Positions 10,436 through 36,409 of a stretch of DNA of 37,950 bases are shown here, piece by piece. The first letter of the stretch is position 1; every line of letters begins with the position of its first letter. A model generated the notes under the pieces. The model was given only the letters and a program-made list of their open reading frames with translations. It did not search any database and was not told where the DNA came from. This DNA comes from a virus: IMG/VR virus record IMGVR_UViG_3300032047_000043, positions 1-37,950 of that record; one strand, 5' to 3'. Both the position numbers and the translations under genes were made by a program.

Positions 10436-10786
10436 TTAGTAACACCATATCACAGGAGTAGTTTCTCTAATGTCTACATGAACAAATGACTTAGCTACTC
10501 CTATCCCATTAAAGCCTAACTTCAAAGCTTCTTCAATTATTGTTCTTCGCTGACCACCGCCAGAGACTTTGATGTCTGCGGCAATGCCTTGAGCATGAGT
10601 GCCTGCTTTAGACTTGCGCTTTTCAATGCTATGATTAGGACTACGATAGCCAGAAGTAACAGTGAACGAAAACCCACACGCCTCCCTAAGCTCGTCAAGC
10701 CTGTGTATAAACTCTTCACTTATATTATTTTCTCCTGTCTCTTGACAATTAAACTCATCTATGCTAAAATATTTAAACTTAGGCAT
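10436..10786 (-). CDS. Endolysin, M15-type peptidase (L,D-/D-carboxypeptidase fold)
   Basis: 116-aa peptidoglycan peptidase of the M15_3 type. SGYRS (residues 45-49), the zinc ligands H64 and D71 in THAQGIAADI, and H103-x-D105 in FVHVDIR match the H...D...HxD zinc site. It would cut peptide stems of peptidoglycan at lysis. There is no signal peptide, so it relies on the holin. I chose ATG at 10786 because GAAGGAGG (10795-10802) lies 8 nt upstream; a TTG one codon earlier is not needed. The start overlaps the giant protein stop by 8 nt, so the ribosome-binding site is inside that gene. Confidence 0.92.
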   Translation of the reverse strand: MPKFKYFSIDEFNCQETGENNISEEFIHRLDELREACGFSFTVTSGYRSPNHSIEKRKSKAGTHAQGIAADIKVSGGGQRRTIIEEALKLGFNGIGVAKSFVHVDIRETTPVIWCY

Positions 10787-13700
10787 CAATCAAACCTCCT
10801 TCATAAAACATCCGCAACCCTTGCCGCACAGCGTTTTCCATCTCTGGCGTTATATCCATAACATACATAGGCTCAGTTGCTAATACTTCATTGCCGTCTA
10901 TAGCAACGCCAACTTCTTCTACATTTACTTTTGAATTGTATTTACTACCAAGCTTCTTGAACTGCTTTAAGAACTTAGTATCATACTTTTCACCTAAGCC
11001 TGTTTGTTGATTCCCCATTTCATCTGAGTATCTTGCAGCTTGAGACTTGCCTGTAGTTAAAGCAATGCGTTTGTTTCCATGTTCAACAGCTTCAATAAGA
11101 GCTTTGCTTAGAGTTAATCGAGGCCAGCTATTTTTAAACGGGGCATCAGCAACAGCATCATTCGTTTCAAAAGTAGAATCATAAAGTGAATATTTTTTGT
11201 AAATATCTCGTACTTTTGCGCTTGTTTCTTCTCCCAACTCTTTTATAAAGTCTACGTTTAACTCAGCAATTTTTGAGTTAAGCATCCGAATAAGTCTATT
11301 AGATCGTTTATCACTTATTGCTTTGTTTAATCTTTGTTCAAGATTTAATTCTTTAATTTTATTTTCCATAAATTTATCAGAAAATATTTTAATTTCTTTT
11401 GCAGGTACGCCTTCTTCTAATAAATTGTTTATTATAGAACTACCATAATCAGAAAATTCTTCAGCTTGTTCATCTAATTCTTCAAGATCATCGTAGTATT
11501 TTTTTACTTCTTTTAAATAACCATCGTAAAATTTCATTGATTCTGTCATAAAGATTTTTTCTTTTTCTTCTTTATTATAAGGAAGGGGCTTATCTATTTT
11601 AGTATACCCGTGCTTGCCGCCTTGTTTATGATAATCAGATTGTATCTCTTCTATTAACATAGTTGTCTTATCAAAATTGTCGCCACTTAAACCGTCAGTA
11701 ACCCTAATATGCGCTATAATATTATCAATTGACTCGTTAGTGTACTCAAGAACAGCACCAAAATGCTCATGTTCTGCATGAGAAATATTATCTAACATAG
11801 GGTTGCCTGTGTTTTTTGGAGTACGCAGTGCAATAACTCTGTAATTAGAAGGCTCATAGCCAGCTTTAGCAGCTAATGTATAATCTGAAAACTCAGCCGC
11901 AAAGGTATACTTGCCCTTTGACTTTTCGCCTATGTCTTTTTTAGCTACTCTAGCCATCTTATTTAAATACATTTTTCTTAACGGCTCAACATATTTACCG
12001 TCATCAAAACCTATTTCGCCTGAGTTAATTTTTCTTAACACCTCTGGAGATAAAACGCTTTGAATAAACTCTGTATCAAAAGCATACAAACCATGATCAT
12101 CAACAGCTTCGTTAAAAGAAAGCTCATCAAAGCCTTGCTCTTCTAGCGTCAATCCTTTTTTACCTCTAAGAGTATTTAACTCAATTTTATTATTAGAAAC
12201 AATTTGTTGAACTTCTTCTTTTGTTGTACTAGGCAAACCTTTTAGTTCTTTCTGTACGCCTGTAAAAACCAATTCTTCATCAGTTACTCTGCCCTTGTCG
12301 CCTTTTTTTAAATCTTGCAGAAACGAATTGCCCGTACCTTTTTCACGAGTGAGATTCAATGATGCCTTTTCTAAAGGGCTATAAAAACCTTCTGCCATAC
12401 GAGGAGCTAATTTTGCAGCAATCTTGCCGCCTATGTTTACTTTAGATCTGTCGTTGTCTTGAAGCTCATCTAACTCTCCTACATATATTTTGCTCTTATA
12501 GTCGTTAGTAGGTATTTTAATTTTACCCATAAGAGTTCTAAGTTTAGTGTAGTTGTCAGGCAGTGCTGTAGATATGCGCTCACCTATGTTATTAAAGTTA
12601 TAAACATCTGTGACATATACTTTACCATCCTCAACAGCAAGTTGAGCGCCACCTACTGAAAAAGCCGCTTCTTCTGTAGGCGTAATGTCGCCTCGAATCA
12701 TTCTAGCTTGCAGATTGTCTCGCTCTCTTTGCTCTGGATAAGCAACTTGACCCCTAACATTAGACTCTTGTAGATTATAATCACCGTAGTCAATATTAAA
12801 TTTACCTTTGCTTAAAGCATTCTTTGCCGCAAAACGCAACGCTTCAATTACACTCGGGTTGTAATCTGCTTCTGTCTTGTCTTTTTGAAACGGATTAAAG
12901 AAGTCTGCAAAGTTCTTAACTACTTGATTATTTGCCGCTTGTCGTATGCTTGCAATAAAACTTTTTTCTTCAGGCTCTTTATTTTTAGGTACTAATCTTT
13001 CTTTAAGGTTTCTTAAAGCTCTTAAAGTATCTGACGATATGCCTGAATCTTGCCGAAGTTTACGAAGTCTATTAAGCGCTTTTCCTGCCTTATTATTTCT
13101 TCCTTGTTTTTCACGCATTGAAGCAAGAGAGCTAACTACTTTATTTTCTTCAAATGCTTTTTCTTTAGGCAATACAATCTTTTGATCTACATAGATTAAA
13201 TTAGCATCTTTAATATCATTAAGGCCCATTATAGCTTCTATTGTTGTGTCAGCATTTTTAGCTATAGATGTTAAAGTGTCTCCAGCCTCAACTGTATATG
13301 AAGCTTGACCTCCTTCACTATAGCCTCGTCTTGCTTTACTTTCAGATGGAGTCATAAACACAGCTTTTCGGTCTGCTATTAATTTATCAATAACCTGCTC
13401 TGCTTGTTTAAAATCTCTAGCTTGTATTTGAGAGCCTAGTTTATTGTTATGAATATCCATTTTGCCGCCAACATGATCAAGAGTTACAAACTCTCTAGCG
13501 TTTGCTGCAAACAAAGCAGCTTTAGGATATTTAGCATTTTTAGTTATAAAACCAAGGGCTAAGTGAGCTGCCGCATCTCCGATTCCGTCATAGCTTTCGC
13601 TCTTTGGAAACCTATCTCGTTGGCTTCTAGCCCACGACAAAGCTTCGTCAGGAATACCAAGCTTCCTAGCTATAACTGATCCACCTTCAGAGTACATATC

Positions 13701-16700
13701 TCTAGGATCATTTAAATCAAACTTAGCAGCGCTTACGTTTTTAAACTGCTGTGGGTCAAAAGCAATATATGAATAAAACTCTTCGCCTTGAAACGGTGGC
13801 TCTACTTGATTCTTGTATTTAATACCATCAAAACCTAAACCTTTTAAAAAGCTTTGAAAATCTTTTGTTAGTCTTGCATGATCAAGAAGCATTGCAATTT
13901 CGTTTTGAACCTTGTTTGTTCCTTTACTGTTTGCATCTTCTGAAGCTTCAAGAATAAATTTAGATTCAAGGGCAACAGCTCTAAAAGACATTTCATCTAT
14001 TAGATCTATTTCAATACTACTAAGTTCTCTGCCAAGCTCCTCTTCTAGTGCGTTTTCTACTAAGTCATAGTCTTTAGTTAAAAGATTGTCTACGCTCCAA
14101 GATCCCATGTCTGAATTTATAAACAAAGGATTTTTAATATTTAAATAACCCTTTAGTATAGTTACAGGAGGAACATTTTCTTCAAAGCCTTGATTAGTTA
14201 AGTTTTTGTTTTTTTCTACCTCTTCTTTAAACATATCAAACATTTCTTTTTTACTTACTTTTTGCCTGCCTGTTGCGGCTAATGCAAAATTATCTACAGC
14301 ACTATCAAAATTAATTTCTTTTAAAGCTTGATAGTTTGCTTGGCCTTGATTGCCGTAATGGACTCCCATTTCTCTTGGGAAAGCATATGCAATATCATAG
14401 TTATGATTATTAAAACTAGACACGCCTCTAAATACTGGGACTGTAACTTCTGAGTCAGCAATAAATTCGTCCTTAGAAATATTTAAATTTTTATTGATCG
14501 CAACCGCAGCATCACTGCCTCTATCTATTGGAGTTATTTCCGCAGTTTCTTTTATAAACTCAGCCATCTCATCATTTGCATCAGCTTTAACCATTAAATT
14601 AGCTATGTGCTGCTTAGCTGCTTTTTCTGCCCCTTCTTTAGTTAAAGTGTCAGAATACATTTTGTTAATATGTTTACTTACAAACTTAGTAAGAGGCTCA
14701 ATCAACTCTTCTTCTTCTCCTAGATCTAAATCTTTAAACTCAGGACGAAGCAGGTTATCTTTTTTAACTTTTAAATTTTCAAGGGACGCATTAATTGCTC
14801 CAAACATTTCGTAGTTTGGATCTATTTCTTCTGCAAGCTCTGTGAGCAGTTCATTAGACGACACATTTCCTTCAAGAACTGACTTAGTTACAACGTCTAC
14901 ATATTCGTCAAAATCGTATTCGTCAGTAAACATGCTTTGTAAACTTAAAGTATCAAAGTCGTCTGTAGTAACTGGTGCGTCCTGTATTCCTTTAAGGTTT
15001 CCTCCAAGCGTAACAGTTTCATTAATGTCTTCTGCTACATTATTAATAGCTTTAGAATTAAACAAGCCTTCTGTATGCACATTTATTTCTTCAGCCAGTT
15101 TAGAAGATAGTTTTTGCGCTACCTTACCGCCTATATTAAAACCAAAACGCTGAGTTCTTCCTTCATCAAGCTCGTCCATAAAGGCTGTACCAGCTTCTAC
15201 GTTGTAAGGTACGCCTGTTACTTTATTCATTCTTTCATCAGGCTCTGAAGCTGCTCTAGCTATTTCAACTTCGCCACCTTTAGAAAACATTTCTTTGCCT
15301 ACGTTATATTCAAAGTCAGGAACGTACTTGTCAGAAATACCTTTATCAATACTCTTTAAAGTCTTACGGTACTTACGCATTGCGTCCTGACCAAAAAGAG
15401 TTGTGCCTAATCCAACAAGAGGAACTTTGTTTCCAAGCACTTCGGCAGGTCTGCCTCTAGCTATGTCTAACATTTCTCCAGCAAAAGGGCCAAATGGCAT
15501 TGTAAGATAGCCAGCAGGGTTTTGACCGTAAAGAGCTTCCTTTTTAGATCTTGAAAAAGTATCTAAAAATAATCCATTACCGCCCCAACGTGCAATAGCT
15601 CTTAGGTTTTTTTCTGATTCATCTATGTGCCAAGCTTCGCTTTCGCCACGAGAACGCACCCAGTTCATAAACCTAGCTGCCGCAGTCATTGACAAAGCAG
15701 CTCCCATTACTTTAGCACCGTTTCGTTTAGGATCTTTCATTACAGACTTTGCAGCCCCTTTAAGAACAGTATTTGTAAAAGCTGCTGGATAACCTAAGAG
15801 TTGAAATAAAATAGTAGTCTTAGGATTAGAGTAAAGAGTTGGTTTTAAATTAGACATTGCTGTAGGCTGTAAGATTACTCCATCTACGTATCGTGATGCG
15901 CCTCGTGTAAATTCTTTATAGTAATCATCAGATTTTTTTGCTCCGCTATTAATCCAATTTACTCCAGCTTTATAGTCTATGCCTAGTTCATTTAACTCAC
16001 CAATCATTGAATCTATTTTGCCTGTCCTAGCTTTAGATCCGTGAGCAGCTATAGCTTTTAAATTATCTTCAATTAAATTTTTACCTGTAGCATATGAAGA
16101 TATTTGAACAAACTTTGTCCATTGATCTAGTAAATTTAAACGGAAAAACTTATTGCTTACTTCTTGCATTCCTTCATGTATTAAATCATCGCCTGCAAGA
16201 CGATTGCCTATTTGACCTACAGACTGATCCATTGCCTTGCCAAAAGACTGCAACTCTCGCCATACTTCGTTAGTTGTTAAACCGTGTCTATTTTTAAGTT
16301 CTGAGTGTAGGTCATTTGTAATAGTTTTATAAGCTACTTCGGAGGCTTCTTTAAAACCTTTAGCAGTATTTAACACTCCTCCTTTACCAAGATTAATAAG
16401 TATCTCAGTTACACTGCCTACTGTAGCTAATGGAAGCATTGCTAGACGAGTAGCTAACTGATACCCGTCTACTCCTGTTTGTAACGAGTTGCCAAAACGC
16501 TCTACGTTTTCTCCAGTAGTAAGTCTATAAAGATTTACTATTCTTGCTCTATCTGCTGGACTTAAAGTTCTTCCAGCTTTCTGCATTTCAGCTACTATAG
16601 GATTTAACCACTGTGCTTTAAACTCGTCTTCGTTTCTAGCTTTAAATACTTTTACTTTAGCTAAAGACTTACCAGCTTGGAAGTTATAAGTTTCAATAAC

Positions 16701-18482
16701 GCTTATTAAATCGTCTTCTAAAAATTCTGTAAACTTAGCTTCGTTTTTTATATCTGTAAATTTACGTTTAGAAGAAAAGAAATGTCCTGCTGTGCCACCA
16801 TCTAATTGATTTTTAATATCTAGCATTTCGTCTACGATTCTTTGTGCCTCTATTAAACTATCAGCTTCGCCTTCTTCAACTAACAAACGCTCGAACTCAT
16901 CTCTGTTGTTTTTAATAGCTTTACCGTTCCACATACGAGGAATGTAGTTTTCTACTCTTTCAGCTATTACGCCTGCTTCATGCAACTCTTCGCCTATTTG
17001 CTTAAACATGTTCTGTATGTTTTTAGCTGCTGTATTTATAGTCATGTCTGGAGACATTTGACCACGAATAGCTCTATTTAACGCACCACTAACGCTGTCT
17101 TCAATTGAGCCGTTTACAGAATCTAAACCAACAGGAGCTAAAGCTTCTCTATACCTTTCTCTAAAAATACCAGTATATCTTCGAGCTACTTCAGCAAAGT
17201 CCATGCCCACTACTTCGTCTTGTTTTTGGGTAGCTTTTATGCCAAAGTCAAAAGACAAACGCTGTCTTAAAGTTTCAGCAGTCTTTGAGTAAGGTACGTA
17301 GCTTGTAAGAATACCTGAAGATTTGCCACCAAACATTGTGCCAACTAGCTCTGTAGAAATTTTCCACAGATTAAAAGCTATGTTATTTTTTATAACTTCT
17401 CCAGTTGCACCAGACTTTAATTCGCCTAGTACAACTTCGTCTAGTTGATCTCGTGTAGCTTGACCGCCACCAACATCAGCTACAAAGTCGTCTAAGATTT
17501 CATCAAAGTCTCCTAACTCTATATCATCAAGATCTACTTCTCTTGCAAATCTGTTGCCTGCCAGAAGTCTATCTACTTCATCAATTACCGTACTGCCAGA
17601 AGAAGGAATCCACTCTCCTTCTATTCCTTCGTCAAAAAGTTCTAAGCCTTTAGATTGAGACAAAGGAACACTATTGTCATCAGTTGCTCGCTCTGCTCGT
17701 CTTGTTGCCGCCTTGCTAATTACTTTAGACAAGCCCCAGTTAATTCCTCCGCCTAGAACAGTACCAAGACCAGTAGACAAAACATTTTGACCATAGCTAA
17801 ACTCATCTTGATTATCTAAGTTCATGTTTAAATTTTGAGCGCTTATGTCAGCAGCACTGCTAAACGTACCGCCATAAGCCGCACCAAACTTAAATGGGTT
17901 ATTACTAGCTGCTGTAGCTCCTTTCTGTAAAGCGCTATGAAGAGCTTTCCTGACCGTTGCATTTGCAGCAGTAGGAGCAGTTCCGCCTGAATAAATAGCA
18001 GCAGCAATCATTGGTATAGTTTCAAAGTTAGCTATAAGATCTATGCCATAGTCTTTTACAAAACCTGCCCACTCATCAAAACCTTGAATGTCTGCGCCTT
18101 CCCATTTTTCTCGAAGTCTGTTATATGCTTCTTTAATTTCTGGAGTTGCGTCTTTCATGTCCATAGCTCTGTTTGCAAGCGTAGAAATTCTAAACTCGTC
18201 TCTCATAGCTTCAGAAGGTCTGTCATTAAACATGCTTGCAGGATCAAGCAGACCACTCATAAAAGTTCGGTTGCTTCCAAAGTAATCTGTTACAGTTTCA
18301 AAGTCTTTAAGAACTTCAGGATCTTGATCAAAAGCAGTAACGTCTCTTGGTTGTTTTAATAACCGTTGAATATTGTTTGCTTCTTCTTGTGTTCGTATTA
18401 AAGTATCTTCAGGAGTAATTTCTCCTCCTGCTCCTCTTTGAGCATATAAATCTAATGTTCTTTGAGCTAAAGAATCAACCAT
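10779..18482 (-). CDS. Giant multidomain virion/ejection protein of the phage polyvalent type (~2567 aa)
   Basis: Largest gene in the window. Numbering is from ATG 18482, chosen because GGAG lies 9 nt before it; ATG 18497 has no ribosome site. Parts in order: Ala/Gly-rich hydrophobic segments at ~140-250; an ejection-type region at ~780-1060 (LNLLDQWTKFVQ, LLGYPAAFTNTVLKGAAKS), resembling large-polyvalent-associated modules; an ADP-ribosyltransferase-like segment at ~1350-1590 (FRGV with R1352, GYLNIKNPLF, GLGFDGIKY, YIAFDPQQFK); an MDIHNN module at ~1615-1690; LysM at 1729-1773 (YTVEAGDTLTSIA, nt 13164-13298); a C-terminal module with IIAHIRV, LIEEIQSDYHKQGGKHGY (~2275) and ALTTGKSQAARYS (~2473). 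Joints such as MFSKGG, MYSEGG, GYSEGG and MFYEGG recur. It probably enters the host with DNA and breaches or modifies host targets. The polyvalent call is good; enzymatic activity is inferred. Confidence 0.85.
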   Translation of the reverse strand: MVDSLAQRTLDLYAQRGAGGEITPEDTLIRTQEEANNIQRLLKQPRDVTAFDQDPEVLKDFETVTDYFGSNRTFMSGLLDPASMFNDRPSEAMRDEFRISTLANRAMDMKDATPEIKEAYNRLREKWEGADIQGFDEWAGFVKDYGIDLIANFETIPMIAAAIYSGGTAPTAANATVRKALHSALQKGATAASNNPFKFGAAYGGTFSSAADISAQNLNMNLDNQDEFSYGQNVLSTGLGTVLGGGINWGLSKVISKAATRRAERATDDNSVPLSQSKGLELFDEGIEGEWIPSSGSTVIDEVDRLLAGNRFAREVDLDDIELGDFDEILDDFVADVGGGQATRDQLDEVVLGELKSGATGEVIKNNIAFNLWKISTELVGTMFGGKSSGILTSYVPYSKTAETLRQRLSFDFGIKATQKQDEVVGMDFAEVARRYTGIFRERYREALAPVGLDSVNGSIEDSVSGALNRAIRGQMSPDMTINTAAKNIQNMFKQIGEELHEAGVIAERVENYIPRMWNGKAIKNNRDEFERLLVEEGEADSLIEAQRIVDEMLDIKNQLDGGTAGHFFSSKRKFTDIKNEAKFTEFLEDDLISVIETYNFQAGKSLAKVKVFKARNEDEFKAQWLNPIVAEMQKAGRTLSPADRARIVNLYRLTTGENVERFGNSLQTGVDGYQLATRLAMLPLATVGSVTEILINLGKGGVLNTAKGFKEASEVAYKTITNDLHSELKNRHGLTTNEVWRELQSFGKAMDQSVGQIGNRLAGDDLIHEGMQEVSNKFFRLNLLDQWTKFVQISSYATGKNLIEDNLKAIAAHGSKARTGKIDSMIGELNELGIDYKAGVNWINSGAKKSDDYYKEFTRGASRYVDGVILQPTAMSNLKPTLYSNPKTTILFQLLGYPAAFTNTVLKGAAKSVMKDPKRNGAKVMGAALSMTAAARFMNWVRSRGESEAWHIDESEKNLRAIARWGGNGLFLDTFSRSKKEALYGQNPAGYLTMPFGPFAGEMLDIARGRPAEVLGNKVPLVGLGTTLFGQDAMRKYRKTLKSIDKGISDKYVPDFEYNVGKEMFSKGGEVEIARAASEPDERMNKVTGVPYNVEAGTAFMDELDEGRTQRFGFNIGGKVAQKLSSKLAEEINVHTEGLFNSKAINNVAEDINETVTLGGNLKGIQDAPVTTDDFDTLSLQSMFTDEYDFDEYVDVVTKSVLEGNVSSNELLTELAEEIDPNYEMFGAINASLENLKVKKDNLLRPEFKDLDLGEEEELIEPLTKFVSKHINKMYSDTLTKEGAEKAAKQHIANLMVKADANDEMAEFIKETAEITPIDRGSDAAVAINKNLNISKDEFIADSEVTVPVFRGVSSFNNHNYDIAYAFPREMGVHYGNQGQANYQALKEINFDSAVDNFALAATGRQKVSKKEMFDMFKEEVEKNKNLTNQGFEENVPPVTILKGYLNIKNPLFINSDMGSWSVDNLLTKDYDLVENALEEELGRELSSIEIDLIDEMSFRAVALESKFILEASEDANSKGTNKVQNEIAMLLDHARLTKDFQSFLKGLGFDGIKYKNQVEPPFQGEEFYSYIAFDPQQFKNVSAAKFDLNDPRDMYSEGGSVIARKLGIPDEALSWARSQRDRFPKSESYDGIGDAAAHLALGFITKNAKYPKAALFAANAREFVTLDHVGGKMDIHNNKLGSQIQARDFKQAEQVIDKLIADRKAVFMTPSESKARRGYSEGGQASYTVEAGDTLTSIAKNADTTIEAIMGLNDIKDANLIYVDQKIVLPKEKAFEENKVVSSLASMREKQGRNNKAGKALNRLRKLRQDSGISSDTLRALRNLKERLVPKNKEPEEKSFIASIRQAANNQVVKNFADFFNPFQKDKTEADYNPSVIEALRFAAKNALSKGKFNIDYGDYNLQESNVRGQVAYPEQRERDNLQARMIRGDITPTEEAAFSVGGAQLAVEDGKVYVTDVYNFNNIGERISTALPDNYTKLRTLMGKIKIPTNDYKSKIYVGELDELQDNDRSKVNIGGKIAAKLAPRMAEGFYSPLEKASLNLTREKGTGNSFLQDLKKGDKGRVTDEELVFTGVQKELKGLPSTTKEEVQQIVSNNKIELNTLRGKKGLTLEEQGFDELSFNEAVDDHGLYAFDTEFIQSVLSPEVLRKINSGEIGFDDGKYVEPLRKMYLNKMARVAKKDIGEKSKGKYTFAAEFSDYTLAAKAGYEPSNYRVIALRTPKNTGNPMLDNISHAEHEHFGAVLEYTNESIDNIIAHIRVTDGLSGDNFDKTTMLIEEIQSDYHKQGGKHGYTKIDKPLPYNKEEKEKIFMTESMKFYDGYLKEVKKYYDDLEELDEQAEEFSDYGSSIINNLLEEGVPAKEIKIFSDKFMENKIKELNLEQRLNKAISDKRSNRLIRMLNSKIAELNVDFIKELGEETSAKVRDIYKKYSLYDSTFETNDAVADAPFKNSWPRLTLSKALIEAVEHGNKRIALTTGKSQAARYSDEMGNQQTGLGEKYDTKFLKQFKKLGSKYNSKVNVEEVGVAIDGNEVLATEPMYVMDITPEMENAVRQGLRMFYEGGLIDA
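10795..10802 (-). promoter_or_regulatory. Ribosome-binding site of the endolysin gene inside the giant gene
   Basis: GAAGGAGG on the - strand, 8 nt before the endolysin ATG (10786). The same bases encode the Glu-Gly-Gly of the giant protein's C-terminal YEGGLIDA. It fixes the endolysin start at 10786 rather than the adjacent TTG. Confidence 0.75.
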
Positions 18483-20472
18483 TGAATTTTTCTCCATAAA
18501 TATTAGATAAGAAAGCGTCTTTGTCTTCGCTTCTTCTATAAAGCAACTGATCAGTAGGACTTAGTTCTCTGATAGCTTTAGCTTTTAATAATTTATTACC
18601 AATCCAATCATAAGCTTTTTGATGAACAAGCTCTCTGTTTCTACGTTTATTTAAATAAACATCGCCACCAGTTGCTCTAATTAATGTTTGTTGCTGTTCT
18701 GGAGTTGCTTTAATAGCAGCTTGGTAATCTCTACTTGCTCCAAAATGTTTCTGGAACCAATGTTTAGCTTCGTCTTGAGAGTACTGAACTACTTCATCAA
18801 CCGAGCCTTTTTCTGAAGTACTTGCAGATTCTTCAGCTTGATTAATTTGATTAACTCGCTCTCCTTTAAATTGTTCTACTATTTCTGCATACATAGGCAA
18901 ACCTCTAAATCTAGCCTGACCTAAGAAACCTCCTTTGCCTCCGTCTTCTACGTCACCAATAAAAGCAGCTACTTGTTTTAGGGACATTCTTTTTGGTGAC
19001 TCACTAAGTAACGAAGTCATAAGGCCATCGTTTGCTCCTTCTGACGAGTCATTTACTCGAACACCCTCAGCCCATTTTCCGCTTTGATCTATATCATAAA
19101 CTGCTGCGGCTGCAAGCTGACTGTTCCATTTTAAATCAGGCATCAAGCTCATGCTCATGTCTATTTCATCTCTTGAACCAAGAAAACCACCTTGCTCTCC
19201 AATAAACTCATAGTTTAAAGTGTGCATTTTAACAGCTATTTGCATTGCTGCTAGGCTGCCTACGTTATAAGTATTTTGAAGTTTCTTAGCTGTCTTAGTA
19301 ATAGGCCAAAACATTCTGCGTTCAACAAATTCTGTACGTTCTTTTTTTACTGTTGGATCTGAAGCATCTCCTATTAAAGCATTCATAGCTCTTCCCCAAG
19401 CTTCTCTTTCGCTATCGTTTTGGTTTATAAATTGATTAATTTGAGGCTGTATAGCTCTAACTTTATTTAACTCTACTACTGCCGCTTCTTTTAAAACGTC
19501 AACGCTTTCACCATTCTGACTTGTAAAAGGTTTGCCTGTGCCTACTTCAACCCAACCAACAGAAACGCCATTAATTGTTTTTTCTTGAATAGATACTTGT
19601 CTTTGTTCTCCATAGTCATTTATTGTATAAATATTAGTAGGCTTACCTAGCGTTGGAGTAGCTTTAGATATGTTAATTCCTGCGTCTTTAAGGTCTTGAA
19701 GAAGATCATGGGTAGCAAGAATATTATTTTTTGACTGTCGATAAACATTATAAAAAGCTTCTTTACTACTTCTTTCAGCCGCAGTAACTGTGCCATCGCC
19801 ATCAAAATCTAATTCGTCATCTACAATATCTAACATGCCCATTGATCTTGCTGTTTGATAACCAATGTCTTCGCCTTTACTAAACAAACCAGCAGCTTTT
19901 TGTTTCAAAGCGCCTAGCATAGTTGTAGGCTGAAGATCAGCTATTTCTTTTTTATATTCTGCAAAGTTTACGTCTCCTGCAACTAGCCTATCGTAAACAC
20001 CTCTTTGTTTTTCATGAGCATCGTAGAGCGAAGTACCATACTTCATAGCTAAAGCTGCCGTAGCGGCTTGCTTTTCAGCTTCATTATATCCTACGCCATA
20101 CTCAGTATTAATTAATTTCTGCACTGTAGGCAAAGCTTGCTCAGCAAAGTAATCTTGAGAAGTGCCACCATAAGTTTTTATTTGCGCTTCTGTATTTGCA
20201 TAGTCTTGAGCAAAAGCATTAGCATTTTTAATGCTTGCTGTTTTTGCAAGTTGATCTTCAGTAGTTAAGAAATCTTTTGTTTTGTTAGCTACAATGTTAT
20301 TACCTATATCAACTAAAAAACCAACGCCATAATTAAGCAGTTTAGCTTGACGCTCTTTTCGTTTCGCAGTTCTTTCAGCATCTCTTTGATCTTTTTTATA
20401 TTGCTCATACTGTTGATCTTTGCGTTCACGAACATTAGCTAATAACGACTGACCTACATCTTGAATAGACAT
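18475..20472 (-). CDS. Putative internal/ejection virion protein with an EF-hand loop (665 aa)
   Basis: 665-aa protein with a charged, coiled-coil N-terminus (about residues 10-45, RERKDQQYEQYKKDQRDAER). A short hydrophobic stretch (YGVGFLVDIGNNIV) follows, then a helical body. Residues 222-233 (DFDGDGTVTAAE) form a canonical EF-hand Ca2+ loop with ligands at positions 1, 3, 5 and 12 and Gly at 6. It is placed between other large virion genes and ends overlapping the giant gene ATG by 8 nt (ATGGTTGA). In T7-like phages this position holds internal core proteins that are ejected into the cell, so a similar role is inferred. No named family is recognised. AAGGA upstream supports ATG 20472. Confidence 0.7.
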   Translation of the reverse strand: MSIQDVGQSLLANVRERKDQQYEQYKKDQRDAERTAKRKERQAKLLNYGVGFLVDIGNNIVANKTKDFLTTEDQLAKTASIKNANAFAQDYANTEAQIKTYGGTSQDYFAEQALPTVQKLINTEYGVGYNEAEKQAATAALAMKYGTSLYDAHEKQRGVYDRLVAGDVNFAEYKKEIADLQPTTMLGALKQKAAGLFSKGEDIGYQTARSMGMLDIVDDELDFDGDGTVTAAERSSKEAFYNVYRQSKNNILATHDLLQDLKDAGINISKATPTLGKPTNIYTINDYGEQRQVSIQEKTINGVSVGWVEVGTGKPFTSQNGESVDVLKEAAVVELNKVRAIQPQINQFINQNDSEREAWGRAMNALIGDASDPTVKKERTEFVERRMFWPITKTAKKLQNTYNVGSLAAMQIAVKMHTLNYEFIGEQGGFLGSRDEIDMSMSLMPDLKWNSQLAAAAVYDIDQSGKWAEGVRVNDSSEGANDGLMTSLLSESPKRMSLKQVAAFIGDVEDGGKGGFLGQARFRGLPMYAEIVEQFKGERVNQINQAEESASTSEKGSVDEVVQYSQDEAKHWFQKHFGASRDYQAAIKATPEQQQTLIRATGGDVYLNKRRNRELVHQKAYDWIGNKLLKAKAIRELSPTDQLLYRRSEDKDAFLSNIYGEKFNG

Positions 20473-20486
20473 ATTATATATTTCCT

Positions 20487-21173
20487 TTATTCTGGTTTAG
20501 ACATTAAACTTTCTTGAGGCTCTGCTGGCCGTTCCGCTTCAGGCATAGGCTCATCAGATGTGCTTGGGCGTTCTTCTCCAGAAGCGCCTGTGTTCATTTC
20601 ATCTACTTCAAAACCTGAACGCTTTGGAATAGATTCTAAATCTGCTTGCATCTTTGCAGACAAAATACCTTCTGGTACTCGACTAGACTCTGCGCTACGT
20701 CTAAGATCTGCAAGTTGCTCCTCTTCAATAGCAACTCCCATCATTTCTTCTTCAGCTTCTTCATCGTCTTGTTCGCCTTCATAGATAACTAAAGGTATTC
20801 CTTGACGTTCTGCAAGGGCAATAAGCATATAAGAAACAGGCTCTAACAAAAGTAACATCATGTCAGGATTCCATTTACCGTCTCTTACGCCTACAAACAA
20901 CATGCCTTTAGCTAAACTAAGCACAGGAACTTCAGAGCCTAAAAGCTGCATAGCTTTTGTGTATTTTTCAGGTTGTATTAATGTAGACCACACATATTCT
21001 AAAGCAGGTTTGAGAGCCGTAAAAAACGGAGGCTTTTCGTCAGGCCGAGGACTTGCTGGATCTGTTAATAAAGACTGTCCAGCAATAGGCCCATCTATCA
21101 TTGCTTGCTTTGAATAAGTCTCGTAATCTAATTCTTCTTGTGCTTGTTCTTTTTTAACTTCTTCATCAACCAT
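20487..21173 (-). CDS. Putative virion protein, acidic C-terminus (228 aa)
   Basis: 228-aa protein with a predicted folded, partly hydrophobic middle (PALEYVWSTLIQPEKYTKAM, PDMMLLLLEPVSYMLIALAE) and a long acidic, Pro/Ser-rich tail that is likely disordered (EEAEEEMM, PMPEAERPAEPQE). I chose ATG 21173, which begins 5 nt after the upstream stop; the longer reading from TTG 21188 would overlap that gene. Its place among the ejection-protein genes suggests a virion or assembly role. The acidic tail could keep the basic neighbour (484 aa) soluble; this is speculative. No family recognised. Confidence 0.65.
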   Translation of the reverse strand: MVDEEVKKEQAQEELDYETYSKQAMIDGPIAGQSLLTDPASPRPDEKPPFFTALKPALEYVWSTLIQPEKYTKAMQLLGSEVPVLSLAKGMLFVGVRDGKWNPDMMLLLLEPVSYMLIALAERQGIPLVIYEGEQDDEEAEEEMMGVAIEEEQLADLRRSAESSRVPEGILSAKMQADLESIPKRSGFEVDEMNTGASGEERPSTSDEPMPEAERPAEPQESLMSKPE

Positions 21174-21178
21174 TATTA

Positions 21179-22633
21179 TTAACCCCAACTACTTGCATTA
21201 AATTGAGAGCCTTGCCCTACTCTGTTTATATAAGAACTCCAACCAGTGTCTAATTGATAGGCTGTGTTTCCGTATTGTTGTCCACTATAAGCAAGAGACT
21301 CGTATTGATTAGTTGTGTCGGCATAGCCTGCACCTGTTTGCCCCAGAGTTGCTGTAGTGAATTCAGGTATGTAAGTTCTATAAACATTACTTACGCTGTT
21401 ATCAACAGGAGTCCTAAAGCCTTCTCCATGTTCAGCAACTAAAGCCATTTCTTGCGCTCGTGTTGTTCCATAAACTTGAACCGCTTTACCTATTGCATCT
21501 CCACCTAACTCAACGCCTTTATCAATTACAGCTTCAGGATCTGTAATAAAGTCAATGCCCTCACTAATCTTTTCACCTATAGCAGCTTTAGAGTCTTTAT
21601 ATAGATTACTAGCTCCTGTTTTAAATTTGTCTAATAAACTCGGAGTTTCTACTGGAACTTTATTAAAGATTGCGTTTGGATCTACTACGCTCATTTCAGT
21701 AGAAAAAGCTCCATCTATAGGTGCTTTTGTAAAAGGATCATATACTGTGCTTTGATTTACTGCCGCAGACATGCTGCCTTCAGTTGGCACTTGAGCTAGT
21801 AATGAATCAGGATTAACAACTTGTTCATTTAACAATTCTACTGTACCGTCAGGCATTACATTTGTTAATCCTCCATCTACAGCAGTTTTATTAAATTCTA
21901 TGATTTGTTGGTCTGTCATTCCTATAGAAGAGTCTACTGTAGGAATAGTATCTCCATAAACTTGAGTAGCGTCTGGTGCTGTTGCGCCTTTAACAAAGTC
22001 TGCTTTGCTTTCTACTACTTGAATATTAGAAGCCTTTAAAGCAGCTTCAGCATTTATTTTTTCCATCCCGCCAAGAAGTTTTTTCTGATAAGCGTCTTCA
22101 CCTAAAGTTAAATTCTGAAATCGACTAACGTCTTTATTAGTAAAACTTCGACTAAAAGCACTGTCGCCTGAACCAAAGAAGTTTTCTGCGCCTCCAGTAT
22201 TAAAACCCATTTTCTTTCCAAGTGTCTTACCAAAGTTTCCAAGCGTGTCCATTACACCTTTTGTAACATTGCTAAATACATTACCAACCGTACTTATTGC
22301 TGTATGTGCAAACTTAGCTAAATGTCCAACCCCTTGAACAATAAAATTACTTGCGCCTATTGCAGCTTGACTAAAGGCTGAAAGACCTTTCATTAAAGCT
22401 CCGCCAATTCCAGGAAGTATAAACATCATAGCTATTTGACCTACAACACCTATCTTGCCCATGAACTTTCCAAAAGATACAAAAGCTTTTTTAATCTTGC
22501 CGCCTACCCAACGCACAGCTTTGTCTAAGCCTGTAGCTTTGGCTACTTTTTTAATTACTTTGCCAACGCTTTTTAGACGTTTCTTTACAGACTTTTTAAA
22601 TTTTTTAAATTTAACTTTAAGTTTTAATCCCAT
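21179..22633 (-). CDS. Putative internal virion/membrane-active protein (484 aa)
   Basis: 484-aa protein with an extremely basic N-terminus (residues 1-50, MGLKLKVKFKKFKKSVKKRL at the start). An Ala/Gly-rich hydrophobic region follows (about 60-115, GQIAMMFILPGIGGALMKGL), then a polar C-terminal part ending in Tyr/Gln/Gly-rich repeats. Cationic amphipathic plus hydrophobic segments are typical of phage proteins that insert into or cross the host membrane during DNA ejection, the job of T7 gp14 in the inner-core set. AGGAG precedes ATG 22633 at good spacing. No sequence family is recognised, so the role is from composition and gene order. Confidence 0.68.
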   Translation of the reverse strand: MGLKLKVKFKKFKKSVKKRLKSVGKVIKKVAKATGLDKAVRWVGGKIKKAFVSFGKFMGKIGVVGQIAMMFILPGIGGALMKGLSAFSQAAIGASNFIVQGVGHLAKFAHTAISTVGNVFSNVTKGVMDTLGNFGKTLGKKMGFNTGGAENFFGSGDSAFSRSFTNKDVSRFQNLTLGEDAYQKKLLGGMEKINAEAALKASNIQVVESKADFVKGATAPDATQVYGDTIPTVDSSIGMTDQQIIEFNKTAVDGGLTNVMPDGTVELLNEQVVNPDSLLAQVPTEGSMSAAVNQSTVYDPFTKAPIDGAFSTEMSVVDPNAIFNKVPVETPSLLDKFKTGASNLYKDSKAAIGEKISEGIDFITDPEAVIDKGVELGGDAIGKAVQVYGTTRAQEMALVAEHGEGFRTPVDNSVSNVYRTYIPEFTTATLGQTGAGYADTTNQYESLAYSGQQYGNTAYQLDTGWSSYINRVGQGSQFNASSWG

Positions 22634-22646
22634 TTCTTTCTCCTAA

Positions 22647-24926
22647 TTAACTAAACAGGGTATCAATAAAATCAGCAGATGCCTTTTGATTTTTTGTTGT
22701 TGTAGCATTTGATTTAGCTCCCATAGCTGCTTCGTTGCCTATTGCAGTTGCGTACAGTTGAGCTATGCGTTGTTGTTCATTCTCGTAGTTTTGTCGTATA
22801 TAAGCCATGTTGTCTCTTATCTGTAACCATACTTGAGCCTGATCAAGAGCTGTTAAATTATATTCGTTTTGAACATTTTGCTGATTTGCAGAATTAAAAG
22901 CTGCGGTAGCGGCAGTGTTTGTATTCCTACGCCAAGCTATATCCGATTGCTGCACTGCTTGAGCATTAGTAGCATTAAATGTTTCACGTTGAAGTATATT
23001 AGACTCATAAAACTTTTGAGCGTCTTGTTGTAAATTTGCATTAAATTGATCTGCTTGTAATTTATTGCCTGCATCTATTGCATTCATTTTATTTATTTCG
23101 GCTGTATTAAACTGCTTCATTGCGTTATCTTGAGTAGCATTAAACTGATTAATGTTGTTTTTCATTGAAGCCATAAACTGATCTGTCTGCTGTTGGCTTG
23201 AAGCATTAAATTGCAAGGCAGCATTTTGAGCCGATTGATTTGCAAGCATAGTTTGTTGCCTTAACTCTCGACCTTGAATAAAAGCTTGTTGTTGATTTTG
23301 AAGATTAGTTATCTTCATTTGTTGTTCAAAGTCTTTTTCTTGCTTTCTAAATTGAACAGCAGCATCTAATTTCTGAGATGCTCGTGCTTGCAAGGCTTTA
23401 GCATTGTCTTGTGCTATAGGCATTGCGCTTTGAATAATAGCACTAAACAAAGCGTCTCGGCCTACAGTAGAAGCAGACATGCCTCTTGCAGCCATCATAG
23501 CATTTACTTTATCTACTGCTGGCTTTGCCCAAAGTGGAGTCTTGCCTTCTTCCATGCCTGCAAGCAAGCCGTCTAGTTGCGTAGACATAAGAGCTTCTTC
23601 TGGAAGGTCTGCTATATTTGCACGACTTTCAATGTCTGTGCCTTCCATTTTATCTAAAGCGCCTACAGGATCGTTTGCAATAGCGTCACTTAATTCACTG
23701 TCTACGCCATTTTCGTTTGCTAACTTAGAGCCTGCCTGAGCAGTAGTTTGTTTTTTAGTAACATCTATTGCATCTAAAACAGAAGCGGCAGTACCTTGCG
23801 GGACTTCTCCTAAAAGATTCTTTTTAAAATCTCTTATGTGTTGGTCTTGAGCTATTGCAAGTTTTCTACTCTCTTCTGCTAATGGGGCTTGAATGGCTTC
23901 CATTTCTTTTATAGCTTGTTTAAATTCAGAAGACTCAGGATCTACACCAGTGCTAACTAAATTATTAAGTTTCTTTGCAGCATCTTTGTAAGAGGGACTG
24001 TTTTGAAGTTCAGTGGCAAGCTTATTAAATCGTTGTACTTCAGGACTGTTTTGAAACTCGCCAGCCGCTTGGTTTCTTTCAGCAGGAGTCATTTGACCCA
24101 CTAAGTCTACTGCCATTACTGCTTGATATTGACCTGCTTTTAAAGGATCGCCCATACTTGCTGCTTGACTTGCTTTAAGTGCTGCCGCAGGCGATAAGTT
24201 TTCAGCCGTTACATTTTGCGCCCACAGCTCTGTGCTTTTAGGAGTCTCGCTTATTTGTTGAATGTCGTCTTCAGCAGTTACAAAAGGAGCAGACGCTTCA
24301 TCATCTTTTGAAATATCCGCAGCAAGACCTGTCTTCGCATCAGTTACCGTAGCTTTGTCTGCTTGCTTTTCAGTATGAATATCTACTGGAGCATACTTTG
24401 TATCATAGCCTAGCTTACGATCCTTTTGTCCTTTTTTTACTTCCTCTTCAGTTTTTAAAAGATTTTTATCTTCTTTGCCTGCTACATGCTCTTGATTACT
24501 TACTACGCCATCATTATTAAGATCATAACCCTTATTGACTAACCACTCATTATCTTTTTTCTGTCGTGCTAAAGCACTGTCTGTGCCTTGAAGAGCTATG
24601 TCGCCTTCTTCTAAGTTTCTATGTTCTTTTGAAGTAATGCCGTCTTTTCCTTCCCTTACATCAACGCCAGCAGCATTTGTTCTGTCCATGTTGTATTTTG
24701 TATCTTTTGTTCTTCCAAGAGCTGCCCTTGCTTTATTTTTTTCTGCTTCAGAAATCTCACCATCATTGTCAAAATCTGCATCGCTTTCTAAATATTCAAG
24801 TTCTTTGTCTACATGCGCTCTTTCCTTTGGATTATGAGGACTCCAAGTCCCATCCTCAAGTTTATTATGGCCGCCTCCATGAAACTTAGACCTTTTATTT
24901 TTTAAAGCATTTAAATATTTACTCAT
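22647..24926 (-). CDS. Putative virion protein with EF-hand loops and a Q/N-rich coiled-coil tail (759 aa)
   Basis: 759-aa protein. The N-terminal 150 residues carry two canonical EF-hand loops, residues 51-62 (DFDNDGEISEAE) and 135-146 (DLNNDGVVSNQE), with a degenerate loop between them near 89-101. The C-terminal third is a Gln/Asn-rich helical array with repeated QFNA or QFNAT steps (ALQFNASSQQ, NQFNATQDN, KQFNTAEI, DQFNANLQQ), likely a long coiled coil. QFNA-type tails occur in marine podovirus internal proteins, from memory. It leads the group of four likely ejection proteins. Ca2+ binding would be natural in seawater and could control folding or uncoating, but that is inference. Confidence 0.72.
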   Translation of the reverse strand: MSKYLNALKNKRSKFHGGGHNKLEDGTWSPHNPKERAHVDKELEYLESDADFDNDGEISEAEKNKARAALGRTKDTKYNMDRTNAAGVDVREGKDGITSKEHRNLEEGDIALQGTDSALARQKKDNEWLVNKGYDLNNDGVVSNQEHVAGKEDKNLLKTEEEVKKGQKDRKLGYDTKYAPVDIHTEKQADKATVTDAKTGLAADISKDDEASAPFVTAEDDIQQISETPKSTELWAQNVTAENLSPAAALKASQAASMGDPLKAGQYQAVMAVDLVGQMTPAERNQAAGEFQNSPEVQRFNKLATELQNSPSYKDAAKKLNNLVSTGVDPESSEFKQAIKEMEAIQAPLAEESRKLAIAQDQHIRDFKKNLLGEVPQGTAASVLDAIDVTKKQTTAQAGSKLANENGVDSELSDAIANDPVGALDKMEGTDIESRANIADLPEEALMSTQLDGLLAGMEEGKTPLWAKPAVDKVNAMMAARGMSASTVGRDALFSAIIQSAMPIAQDNAKALQARASQKLDAAVQFRKQEKDFEQQMKITNLQNQQQAFIQGRELRQQTMLANQSAQNAALQFNASSQQQTDQFMASMKNNINQFNATQDNAMKQFNTAEINKMNAIDAGNKLQADQFNANLQQDAQKFYESNILQRETFNATNAQAVQQSDIAWRRNTNTAATAAFNSANQQNVQNEYNLTALDQAQVWLQIRDNMAYIRQNYENEQQRIAQLYATAIGNEAAMGAKSNATTTKNQKASADFIDTLFS

Positions 24927-30076: not shown

Positions 30077-31795
30077 TTATCTCCTTCCAGACGGATAGTA
30101 ATCCGCATATATGCCGTTAATTGTGTAAGAGTCTTTATTGTCATCGCTAAACAATCTAAAGTTCATTGTATAGCCGCTCCCTTGAACAGACTGCCTTACT
30201 AAAGGATCTGCTGTGCCGCCATAAATATTGCCCGCTACGTTTGGTGCGTTTTCAAAAACAGCTACTCCAAATTCAGCAGGAGCAGGAACCGTGTTCATTA
30301 TTATGTTGTCAGGCTGTGGTATGTGAGCTACTGAGTTGTCATATCGTATACGCAAAGTAGGCTGGACGTTCCCTTCTGGACGCATTGAAATCTTTAAGTA
30401 GTTTAAAGTCTTTCTTGTTCCCGCATCTCCAAAATCTAAGAAAGGTGTCTTATAAGCTGCAAAAATATTTTTTTTCGTGCCTGCATTATAAAAATCATTT
30501 CCAACCTCATGAGTATAAATATAGCCATCTTTGTCGCCATGATAAACTGTCTCTAGTCCAGTGACAGGATCAAACACAGATTCGATAGCAGTGCATTGTA
30601 TGCCTAAAGTCTCTGACCACACAAAGCCTTCGTTTGTAATAGTTCCAATTATTCCTTTACTACCTGACGGATCTTCTCCAGTTTTTTTTGTGTAGAACAA
30701 ACGATACTGCGCTTTTTCTTTTATTACTACGCTTGCAAGTGTTAAAGTATTTAATTTTTTTACAATGTTGTCTCTAACTAAAGTATGTATCTGGCGGCTT
30801 ACAGACCCTAATTCAGTGTCGCCTATTTTTTCTGTGCCTGCAAGAGTTCTTATTCCGTCAGGAGCTAAGAACACTAAGTCACCGCCTACTTCTTGAATAG
30901 TCTGAAAATCAAGGCAACCTATATTTTTTGAAATAGGTTGAACTGTTTGATTAGCCTCATCTCCAAAAGCTGTTACTTTATGTATGCTGCTTTCACAGAA
31001 GATAATAACATCGCCTCTAAACGATTTAAGACCTGTTACTTTATCTTCAACTATAAAAGAGCCACCGTTGCAAACATCTGTATTTTGGAAATTAGGAGCT
31101 GAGTAGTAAACTGTGTTAGGAGAACTAGGATCTCCTGATAATAATAATCTTGTTTGATGCACTTCAGAAAACTGAGGATGTATGTTGTTGTCAGCATCAG
31201 TTCTTGCTCTGCCTACTGGAATTTCAGTGTAGGCATAAGTTCTTGATAAAGAATTTATAGCGTGATTACTGCCTCCTGTTATTTCAACAACTACAGGATC
31301 GTTTACGCCATCGCAAATAACAAGCGATCCGTTGCCAGCTAAAGAGCCTTCAAAGTGTTTAAAATGAATCTTTTCTTGGTTTGTTCTAGGATTTGGATTA
31401 TTTGATAGAAAGTGTGTATGCCCAGAATAACTAATTGTTGACGTAGATGATATTCTGTTTAACGGAACCCACGAAGTGCCAGAATCTGCTCTCGATACAA
31501 AATATAAGTTAGTGCCTGAAGCAGCAACGCCTCCAGCAGCGTAGCCTGTAATGCCTAATATCTTGTCTGTTCTTATAGCATTTGAATCTGTATAATCTAC
31601 TATCCTGCCTTTGTTTGTGCCAGCAGTTAAGCCAATGCCTTCATGACCGTTTATTCTTCTATAACCACCATCAGTATCTATTTCAAAATTAGTTAGCTCT
31701 ACAGCCGTGCCTGCCTCAGCTTGAAGCATAAACTGACTTTTATTAATGTCAAGGCCGCCTTTACAAGCAAAGCCAAACGGTTGCGTTTGCGCCAT
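30077..31795 (-). CDS. Tail nozzle protein (T7 gp12 / P22 gp10-like role)
   Basis: 572-aa beta-rich protein directly after the adaptor gene, the position of the tail tubular protein B/nozzle in T7-type and the stabilisation protein in P22-type phages. Features that fit are ELTNFEIDTDGGYRRINGHE near residues 33-52, LLSGDPSSPNTVYYSAPNF, and LKSFRGDVIIFCESSIHKVT followed by LVFLAPDGIRTLAG, a beta-propeller-like pattern common to these proteins. It would close the short tail and contact the fibres. The start is coupled to the adaptor stop (TAAGATG) without a strong ribosome site. Confidence 0.82.
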   Translation of the reverse strand: MAQTQPFGFACKGGLDINKSQFMLQAEAGTAVELTNFEIDTDGGYRRINGHEGIGLTAGTNKGRIVDYTDSNAIRTDKILGITGYAAGGVAASGTNLYFVSRADSGTSWVPLNRISSTSTISYSGHTHFLSNNPNPRTNQEKIHFKHFEGSLAGNGSLVICDGVNDPVVVEITGGSNHAINSLSRTYAYTEIPVGRARTDADNNIHPQFSEVHQTRLLLSGDPSSPNTVYYSAPNFQNTDVCNGGSFIVEDKVTGLKSFRGDVIIFCESSIHKVTAFGDEANQTVQPISKNIGCLDFQTIQEVGGDLVFLAPDGIRTLAGTEKIGDTELGSVSRQIHTLVRDNIVKKLNTLTLASVVIKEKAQYRLFYTKKTGEDPSGSKGIIGTITNEGFVWSETLGIQCTAIESVFDPVTGLETVYHGDKDGYIYTHEVGNDFYNAGTKKNIFAAYKTPFLDFGDAGTRKTLNYLKISMRPEGNVQPTLRIRYDNSVAHIPQPDNIIMNTVPAPAEFGVAVFENAPNVAGNIYGGTADPLVRQSVQGSGYTMNFRLFSDDNKDSYTINGIYADYYPSGRR

Positions 31796-34813: not shown

Positions 34814-36409
34814 TTATGCGCTAGGCATCTGGTTCGCATCAAGCATCATAGTCTTCAACTCTTCACTCATGTCTTCGTCATCCTCAAACATAGTTGAATC
34901 GTCTTCGTCATCTGACACCATGCTACCATACGCATAGCCGTCTCGCATACTTCCTCCATATGCTCGACCTTCTCGACTGTCGAACTCAGCTTCGGCTTGA
35001 TCCATCATCATTTGAAGATTATCTGCGCCTAACTGTTCGACAGCCTTTGCGGTGAAAACAAATTCACCGTCCGATAACCTAGCAGGTATCGAATCTGATG
35101 TGCCAGTACCGATGCCTTCTACAGCACCTGCACCAGAAAATTCTGTTGCTGTGTCCATTACTCGATCAAAAAGCGTAGCAAGCTTAGCGTCTTGCTCAAG
35201 GGCAGATGCTAAGTAGTCTTGATCTATAGGACTCAACGCTTCGTTTAATACAAACTCTTCGTACTTTGCTTCCATTTCACTGTCTGGAAGTTGCGAAGCT
35301 TTTACTGCTTCCATTTCTTCAGGCGGAATATTTGAATAAGTGTCTACAGGCATACCACCTTCGTCAAATCCAAATCTACCGATTGATTTTATAAATTTTT
35401 TGCTGAATTTTTTTCTTCCAAAATTAGAAAAAGCTTGTCCTTGCTCTGGCTTTGCTATTTTTTTAAAACTTCTTTTTACTTTTTTAAAAAGTTTAGTTCC
35501 TTTTAGTTTTTTTAACTGTTTTTTATTTCCAATACTCGGAGTAAACTTATTTCCAAAAATACTTAACCCAAGTAAAGGAGAAGTATTCCTTACTGGCTTT
35601 CTGCGCTTTCCAAAAATACTCATAAGTTTTCCAAAAAAACCACCTCTGCCTTTATTTCTTTCTCTTCGAGCAGCGTTAGGAAACTTTTGAGCTACTACGT
35701 TTCCTAGTTTTGTAGCTACGCCTACTTGAGTTTGGCGAGCAGCATCTCCCTGCAACATTGGATTTCCTGAAAACTGAGCCGTAGCCATTGCTTTTGCTGC
35801 GTCTGCTTGTGCATTAGATACTAATTTTTTTGTGCCTTGTGGTTGTGACTGTTCTTTTATTCTTTCAGCTAAGCGACCAAAGATCCCGCTAAAGCCTCCT
35901 CTTAGCTTTTTCTTCATTTTCTTTTTGCCGCCAACCATTCTACTAATTTTTTTAGTAAAACCGCCAAAGAAAAACTGTTCTCTTTCTTCTGCCATGTCTT
36001 CTTCGATTTCCATCTTAGAAGCTTTGTCTATGCTGTAGACTTTATCTTGGAATTCAAAAACAGGAGAGTCGTCAATAACTGCGTCTACAAAAGCATCTTC
36101 AAAATCTTCTAATTGCTCTTGCTTAGGCGGCTCTGTGTTTTCAGAAAACCAAACTGACGCAAGGACAGGTACGGGTATGTCTAGTTCGTCATCAGCGTCC
36201 ATTTCTGGATCGTCCATTATTTCTTCTGCGCCTTGCATTTCTGGAGTACCACGATCAGGAGTCGAGAGAAGAGTGTCTTCCGCAGGCCCACGATTAATCC
36301 GATTAACGTCTTCTTTAGCTGCTTCTAGCAAAGAGTCTGAACCCTCTACAGCCTTTTGAGCTACAGAACCTACTGCGTACTTGACCTTCATTTCTTCTTC
36401 GTTTGGCAT
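34814..36409 (-). CDS. Virion-associated protein with GTGTSDSIPARLSDGEF motif (531 aa)
   Basis: 531-aa protein in four parts: an acidic N-terminus (about 1-135); a strongly basic middle (about 150-350, with GGKKKMKKKLRGG, FGKRRKPVR, KKLKGTKLFKKVKRSFKK); an FDEGGMP joint near 350; and a C-terminal part with EGIGTGTSDSIPARLSDGEF, VFTAKAVEQLGADNLQMMM and an acidic tail. The GTGTSDSIPA..SDGEFV motif recurs in phage structural and tape-measure-like proteins, from memory. Its place between portal and scaffold suggests a head or DNA-contacting virion protein. AGAGGAC in the end of the upstream gene acts as a ribosome site. The exact role is unknown. Confidence 0.75.
   Translation of the reverse strand: MPNEEEMKVKYAVGSVAQKAVEGSDSLLEAAKEDVNRINRGPAEDTLLSTPDRGTPEMQGAEEIMDDPEMDADDELDIPVPVLASVWFSENTEPPKQEQLEDFEDAFVDAVIDDSPVFEFQDKVYSIDKASKMEIEEDMAEEREQFFFGGFTKKISRMVGGKKKMKKKLRGGFSGIFGRLAERIKEQSQPQGTKKLVSNAQADAAKAMATAQFSGNPMLQGDAARQTQVGVATKLGNVVAQKFPNAARRERNKGRGGFFGKLMSIFGKRRKPVRNTSPLLGLSIFGNKFTPSIGNKKQLKKLKGTKLFKKVKRSFKKIAKPEQGQAFSNFGRKKFSKKFIKSIGRFGFDEGGMPVDTYSNIPPEEMEAVKASQLPDSEMEAKYEEFVLNEALSPIDQDYLASALEQDAKLATLFDRVMDTATEFSGAGAVEGIGTGTSDSIPARLSDGEFVFTAKAVEQLGADNLQMMMDQAEAEFDSREGRAYGGSMRDGYAYGSMVSDDEDDSTMFEDDEDMSEELKTMMLDANQMPSA

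Follow-up and report, generated by a model that had tools for sequence, protein, structure and literature searches.

The locus and its giant gene

The window analysed here is the whole of a 37,950-nucleotide virus record (IMG/VR IMGVR_UViG_3300032047_000043), which derives from an uncultured virus with relatives among marine phages and in which no end repeats were found. Its minus strand encodes a giant multi-modular protein, the subject of this report, in a single unbroken frame of 2572 amino acids (aa) that runs from an ATG at 18497 to a stop at 10779. An initial annotation had already recognized a single giant frame, at a length of ~2567 aa that is corrected here and with the strand unstated. 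All of the motifs it quoted are present in the frame, and none of its quoted modules, which were ADP-ribosyltransferase (ART)-like, MDIHNN, LysM and EEIQSD, is a chance motif. A second IMG/VR contig (L001; loci are cited by such numbers throughout) encodes the same 2572-aa frame, with 100% identity. The protein consists of a conserved N-terminal core and a long tail, in which modules A to F have been delimited using iterated profiles. Their positions, with residue numbers in brackets, are as follows:

10779..18497, minus: whole gene, 2572 aa (open reading frame (ORF) reading; identical frame on contig L001)
15288..18497, minus: conserved core (1-1070), putative ejection/internal-virion type (hhalign; conserved in 80 IMG/VR loci)
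15273..15287, minus: junction motif FSKGG (1071-1075)
15126..15140, minus: junction motif FNIGG (1120-1124)
14574..15113, minus: module A (1129-1308), unknown, a helical spacer or domain (34 members)
13698..14507, minus: module B (1331-1600), ART-PolyVal-like, candidate catalytic residues R1357, H1380 and E1566 (34 members, profiles, model)
13680..13694, minus: junction motif YSEGG (1602-1606)
13335..13673, minus: module C (1609-1721), DUF6973-like with MDIHNN (Pfam, relatives, structure matches)
13308..13322, minus: junction motif YSEGG (1726-1730)
13167..13298, minus: module D (1734-1777), LysM (Pfam E = 2e-12)
12528..12947, minus: module E (1851-1990), no assigned function, with a conserved pattern YxDY ... 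DxY[DN]F (18 members, alignment)
12426..12440, minus: junction VNIGG (2020-2024), a variant of the motif
10809..12425, minus: module F (2025-2563), EEIQSD/TTGxxQ, probable enzyme of unknown type (23 members)
10794..10808, minus: terminal motif FYEGG (2564-2568)
10436..10789, minus: next gene, M15 peptidase-type endolysin, given for context (Pfam PF08291, E = 2.2e-10)

The gene stands at the end of a virion block of T7 style. It is the last large gene of this block, carried on the minus strand, following the portal, capsid and tail genes, which comprise in order a portal (SU10-type), a 531-aa protein, a scaffold, a coat protein (nearest to that of HTVC115P, 58%), tail-tube proteins, a 1315-aa fibre-like protein and uncharacterized genes. 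The plus strand, from reading, carries a T7-like DNA polymerase and nucleases, alongside a ribonucleotide reductase whose closest relative is that of cobavirus ICBM2. This layout is similar to that of HMO-2011 and the cobaviruses; in cobaviruses internal virion proteins are annotated beside the lysis genes, and here the gene likewise precedes the endolysin.

A conserved core with remote podovirus relatives

Searches of isolated phages with tblastn found no close relative of the protein, returning only two weak matches, both to residues 473-914. Profile alignment with hhalign, on the other hand, matched the core to a 1222-aa ORF of Pseudoalteromonas phage Slicky01 (99.7%) and to a 1055-aa ORF of the Bruynoghevirus (LUZ24-like) Pseudomonas phage 1647 (99.0%), proteins that both end near the core end. 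These alignments firmly indicate a remote relationship between the core and proteins, of putative ejection role, in Slicky01 and a LUZ24-like phage. No homology was found between the core and the internal proteins of HMO-2011 and the cobaviruses, and HTVC115P gp40 gave a weak match only.

A scan with residues 656-929 gathered a family of 80 IMG/VR loci, across which the core segment shows about 42-100% identity. Complete proteins among these loci range from about 1040 to 2657 aa; the core is retained, whilst the tail varies from a few to about 1570 aa. The only bacterial-genome contig found to carry the core (L252, NZMJ01000040.1, 36% identity) belongs to a Maricaulis metagenome-assembled genome; it is probably a phage contig, and is a hint at most to a host.

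Exchange of tail modules and split genes

The window protein and L025 share the order core-A-B-C-D-E-F, and most other long members have core-A-B-F-D-E. L011 and L048 carry a pesticin-type lysozyme after core-A-B (E = 2e-22 and 3e-23), and other relatives end just past the core. Single modules move independently of the core. The proteins of L031 and L040 are 64% identical in the core and 33% in B but 97% in E, and the same disparity between core and E is seen for L029/L031 (63% and 96%), L032/L071 (60% and 95%) and L038/L056 (51% and 91%). Indeed, pairwise identities of core and E are uncorrelated (r = -0.05), and those of B (0.71) and F (0.83) mostly track the core. L030 and L039, with cores 84% identical, differ in that only one has D and E. 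The ratios of non-synonymous to synonymous substitution (dN/dS) of the modules lie between 0.05 and 0.37, which shows purifying selection.

At ten loci the core forms its own ORF and the ART-containing modules a second one (L181, L182, L183, L186, L209, L226, L239, L242, L243 and L245); some of these are near-duplicates, so that fewer are independent, and in two the core is left-truncated by the contig. The second ORF begins within about 10 bases of the core end or overlaps it (by 26 bases in L239). In L195 it is module E that is a separate ORF, following a fused core-A-B-F-D. Since such split-gene forms exist, fusion is optional, which argues that payload and core cooperate yet are separable.

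Module B, a divergent ART-like domain

Iterated profiles show module B to be common to 34 sequences. Pfam does not call PF18760 (ART-PolyVal) in the window protein; the family is met inside module B of relatives (E = 2.4e-5 in L083, 0.004-0.006 in L013 and L048), always under the Pfam cut-off, the best score being 25.6 bits (L083) against 31.2. The motif layout is similar to that of the ART region in the ‘large polyvalent protein’ of Planktothrix phage Pag-Yong1 (VFHST ... SHFGT ... IKNP ... DGIVYANRFE ... SWIAFDPSQI), which has His where module B has Arg; hhalign pairs the two at 64%, over the last motif only. An AlphaFold model is confident over most of the region, and among viral predicted structures its matches bear the name ART-PolyVal (E = 9e-6 to 2e-2). 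The profile hits in relatives, the motif layout and the predicted-structure matches together support module B as a relative of the ART-PolyVal superfamily. The ART fold that had been proposed for residues 1330-1600 is thus not contradicted by the model, which matches viral predicted structures (best E = 9e-6) but no PDB structure.

The active site of polyvalent ARTs has been described as H-Y-D (Iyer et al. 2017; PMC5512222). Module B does not have this triad: position 1357 is Arg in 34 of 34 rows, in place of the His of the described polyvalent ARTs, and the last motif has E1566. Residues S1349, R1357, E1376, G1382, G1450, P1457, L1458, W1467, D1557, Y1561, N1563, E1566, S1576, F1580, P1582 and Q1584 are invariant in the 34 sequences, and H1380 is 97% conserved. 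We interpret module B as a clade of ARTs that has diverged, in which R1357 and E1566 are candidates for catalysis and H1380 is a candidate third residue. In L079 the same core is followed by another ART-PolyVal-like domain, distinct from module B (residues 1148-1200, E = 8.2e-7, HGAG motif), so that the ART there is either a replacement or an addition.

Other modules of the tail

The MDIHNN segment, module C, has six members and is DUF6973-like. In the window protein the match to DUF6973 (PF22322) stays below the Pfam cut-off (E = 0.017, 15.2 bits against 27); it is stronger in module C of relatives (up to 1.1e-4; 22.2 bits in L062), and another F-bearing phage protein exceeds the cut-off (1.2e-8). 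Module D is certainly the full LysM domain of the initial annotation, PF01476 being matched over positions 1-43 of 43 with 47.3 bits against a cut-off of 20.9.

Module E matches no known family. A colicin M-like identity, considered from the DxY[DN]F motif, was rejected, as the profile matched no solved chain of colicin M type at E <= 10. Most of gp23, a stand-alone protein of Roseobacter phage SIO1 (L250, 25069-25671), consists of module E, which also accounts for part of the 1893-aa pelagiphage protein gp40 of HTVC115P (L166, 18857-24538); the N-terminal part of gp40 differs from the core and is at most weakly related to it.

The EEIQSD segment, module F, is conserved among phages and has no assigned function, with 23 family members and 341 confirmed IMG/VR matches; many copies sit in stand-alone proteins of about 700 aa. 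It has no Pfam family, and none was confirmed in bacterial genomes. Its conserved polar residues (H2245, H2263, R2265, D2268, E2284, Q2286, D2288 and R2489) suggest an enzyme. Foldseek returned weak hits only, to spermidine acetyltransferases (E > 1), which together with the suggestive residue pattern give a weak hint of a GNAT-like fold.

The [FY]xxGG junction motif

Tail modules are bordered by a short motif. Tail sequences, 44,910 residues in all, contain the pattern [FYW]xxGG 125 times, and core sequences, 48,615 residues in all, contain it 28 times, with a first letter that is always F or Y; shuffled tails give a mean of 14 and a maximum of 24, so that the observed number is about nine times above chance. 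The GG is present before LysM in 20 of 20 cases and after F in 23 of 23. Outside the family, F proteins of up to 1000 aa have a GxPLF-like end and the motif in none of 48, and on this count the idea that the GG belongs to the end of module F itself was rejected; both classifiable F proteins of more than 1000 aa carry the motif. Codon use at the motif Gly residues is close to background. A DNA-level recombination site was therefore rejected, and the constraint is instead on the protein, where the motif may serve as a hinge, in binding or in cleavage.

Proposed role as an ejection protein

We consider it reasonably probable that the protein serves a short-tailed phage of T7 style as its large internal-virion (ejection) protein, made up of a packaged core and an exchangeable cell-wall and host-modifying payload. 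The N-terminal ~1070 aa would be packaged in the head, leave it with or ahead of the DNA and aid envelope crossing, and the C-terminal ~1500 aa would form the payload. LysM, or the lysozyme in some relatives, may engage peptidoglycan, and the ART-PolyVal-like domain and probably module F may act on host targets right after entry. The modules could be seen as beads on short [FY]xxGG linkers that are gained, lost, reordered, exchanged singly or encoded as an adjacent gene. The homology of the core to podovirus proteins supports the ejection-protein reading, as does the position of the gene as the last of the virion block before the endolysin, like cobavirus internal virion proteins. Further support comes from LysM, the pesticin-type lysozyme of relatives and the ART-PolyVal evidence, and from the module mosaic, independent exchange, separate payload ORFs, junction motif and dN/dS.

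Several points weigh against this proposal. We infer packaging, ejection and ADP-ribosylation from gene position and remote homology, with no close relative among isolates; the linker role, catalysis and targets are likewise inferred. The active-site letters of module B differ from H-Y-D, which makes its activity uncertain, and its model has no match among PDB structures. Module F has no PDB match either, and core, ART and F profiles gave no match or noise against PDB sequences. The lytic domain of T7 gp16 is N-terminal, whereas the wall-related domains here are C-terminal. Finally, Pfam finds no MPTase or processing protease in these tails.

That last point bears on a bolder extension. In other polyvalent proteins the MPTase domain has been proposed as the processing agent (Iyer et al. 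2017; PMC5512222). The [FY]xxGG motifs might mark the points at which an ejected polyprotein is processed, or act as its ordered hinges, the interchangeable effector chain of the core being cut or unthreaded there during packaging or ejection; we hold this to be unlikely on present evidence. If it is true, marine phages have at their disposal a delivery protein of general use that can be re-armed.

The best-surviving alternative, which we regard as doubtful, is that the tail is solely a periplasmic device for wall penetration and anchoring, and the ART-like domain structural or an inactive remnant. The occurrence of LysM in 20 of 48 tails and of lysozyme in two is in keeping with this, as is the Arg in place of His at the first ART position. 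A remnant would not be expected to be under purifying selection, as the ART module is, nor to keep R1357, E1376, N1563 and E1566 invariant in 34 sequences with identity down to about 25%; module F, moreover, is rich in invariant polar residues and has no cell-wall relative. A tape-measure or other tail-structural protein that is not ejected would fit the large size and the place among structural genes, yet is very unlikely: the phage carries T7-type tubular-tail genes, the PHROG tape-measure matches sit on the 531-aa gene, and relatives of the core occur in short-tailed phage genomes. Still less likely is a mosaic created by chimeric metagenome assemblies. The close relatives are indeed all metagenomic contigs, but exchanged E copies of the L029/L031/L040 group differ synonymously (dS 0.24-0.32), the same architectures are seen in several metagenomes, and the window gene is identical on its second contig. 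An endolysin is the least likely of all, since the match to PHROG 7348 ‘endolysin’, strong as it is (E = 1.4e-284), traces to a profile that merges core, ART and F and matches F-only proteins, Pfam finds no hydrolase domain in the window protein, and a separate M15 endolysin gene comes next.

Under the ejection-protein reading, one delivery protein seems to be fitted out with a different payload from one related phage to the next. Ejection proteins of phages tend to be viewed as an unchanging component of the machinery for DNA entry; a conserved core with lineage-specific mobile domains would make that machinery a hot spot of counter-host weapons in aquatic phages. It would also offer a simple route to candidate injected effectors, by reading the sequence after the core, and makes testable how polyvalent proteins are delivered and separated.

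Comparison with known systems

Disparate domains in one frame, encoded with late virion genes, place the protein, for which injection is so far a proposal, within the definition of polyvalent proteins (Iyer et al. 2017; PMC5512222). The initial annotation was right to call it polyvalent, in that ART-like, DUF6973-like and LysM domains, E and F share one frame; the ejection-type core, module exchange, split-gene forms and junction motif go beyond it. Like the published polyvalent proteins, it is a large late phage protein of proposed injection that combines numerous unrelated domains; further common features are a domain of the ART-PolyVal kind, lysozyme in some, and an ART beside other putative modifying domains. 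The protein here differs in that a conserved ejection-type core bears the payload, which can be a separate ORF, in its Arg-for-His ART, in lacking a detectable MPTase, in its [FY]xxGG junctions, and in carrying LysM, a word absent from the text of that paper (PMC5512222).

With the internal or ejection proteins of T7-like and LUZ24-like podoviruses it shares gene position, and with the putative ones of 1647 and Slicky01 core profile homology, although these two have no payload tail. The N4-like virion RNA polymerases with a fused ART (e.g. Roseovarius Plymouth podovirus 1) are likewise giant ART-PolyVal proteins proposed to be injected; their RNA polymerase carrier, canonical ART and M90/SprT-like peptidase domain have no counterpart here. 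The PHROG 7348 profile matches window protein residues 52-1612 in sequence; it merges independently moving modules, and its misleading functional label is unsupported and is corrected here. Unrelated proteins of ~700 aa that share only F inherit the same label (e.g. L096 1612-3765, L102 7503-9746). In a 2014 survey, internal virion proteins were listed among the genes of under-recruiting metaviromic islands, for a reason called obscure (PMC3909814), and a recombining payload tail would be a testable explanation.

Neighbouring genes

The largest uncharacterized genes of the block are four neighbours at 18475-24926 on the minus strand (665, 233, 484 and 759 aa). None of them gave a PHROG match at E <= 1e-3 or, where tested, a Pfam match; the 665-aa gene has no relative among isolated phages. 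The 531-aa protein between portal and scaffold (34814-36409, minus) contains the stretch DSIPARLSDGEFVF, matched by several tape-measure PHROGs, and an FDEGG motif like the tail junctions. A tail-tube-like 572-aa protein (30077-31795, minus) matches end to end a PHROG labelled ‘amidase’, a label that looks wrong for its position. Amid the replication genes lies a 2OG-Fe(II) oxygenase-like gene (2185-2742, plus).

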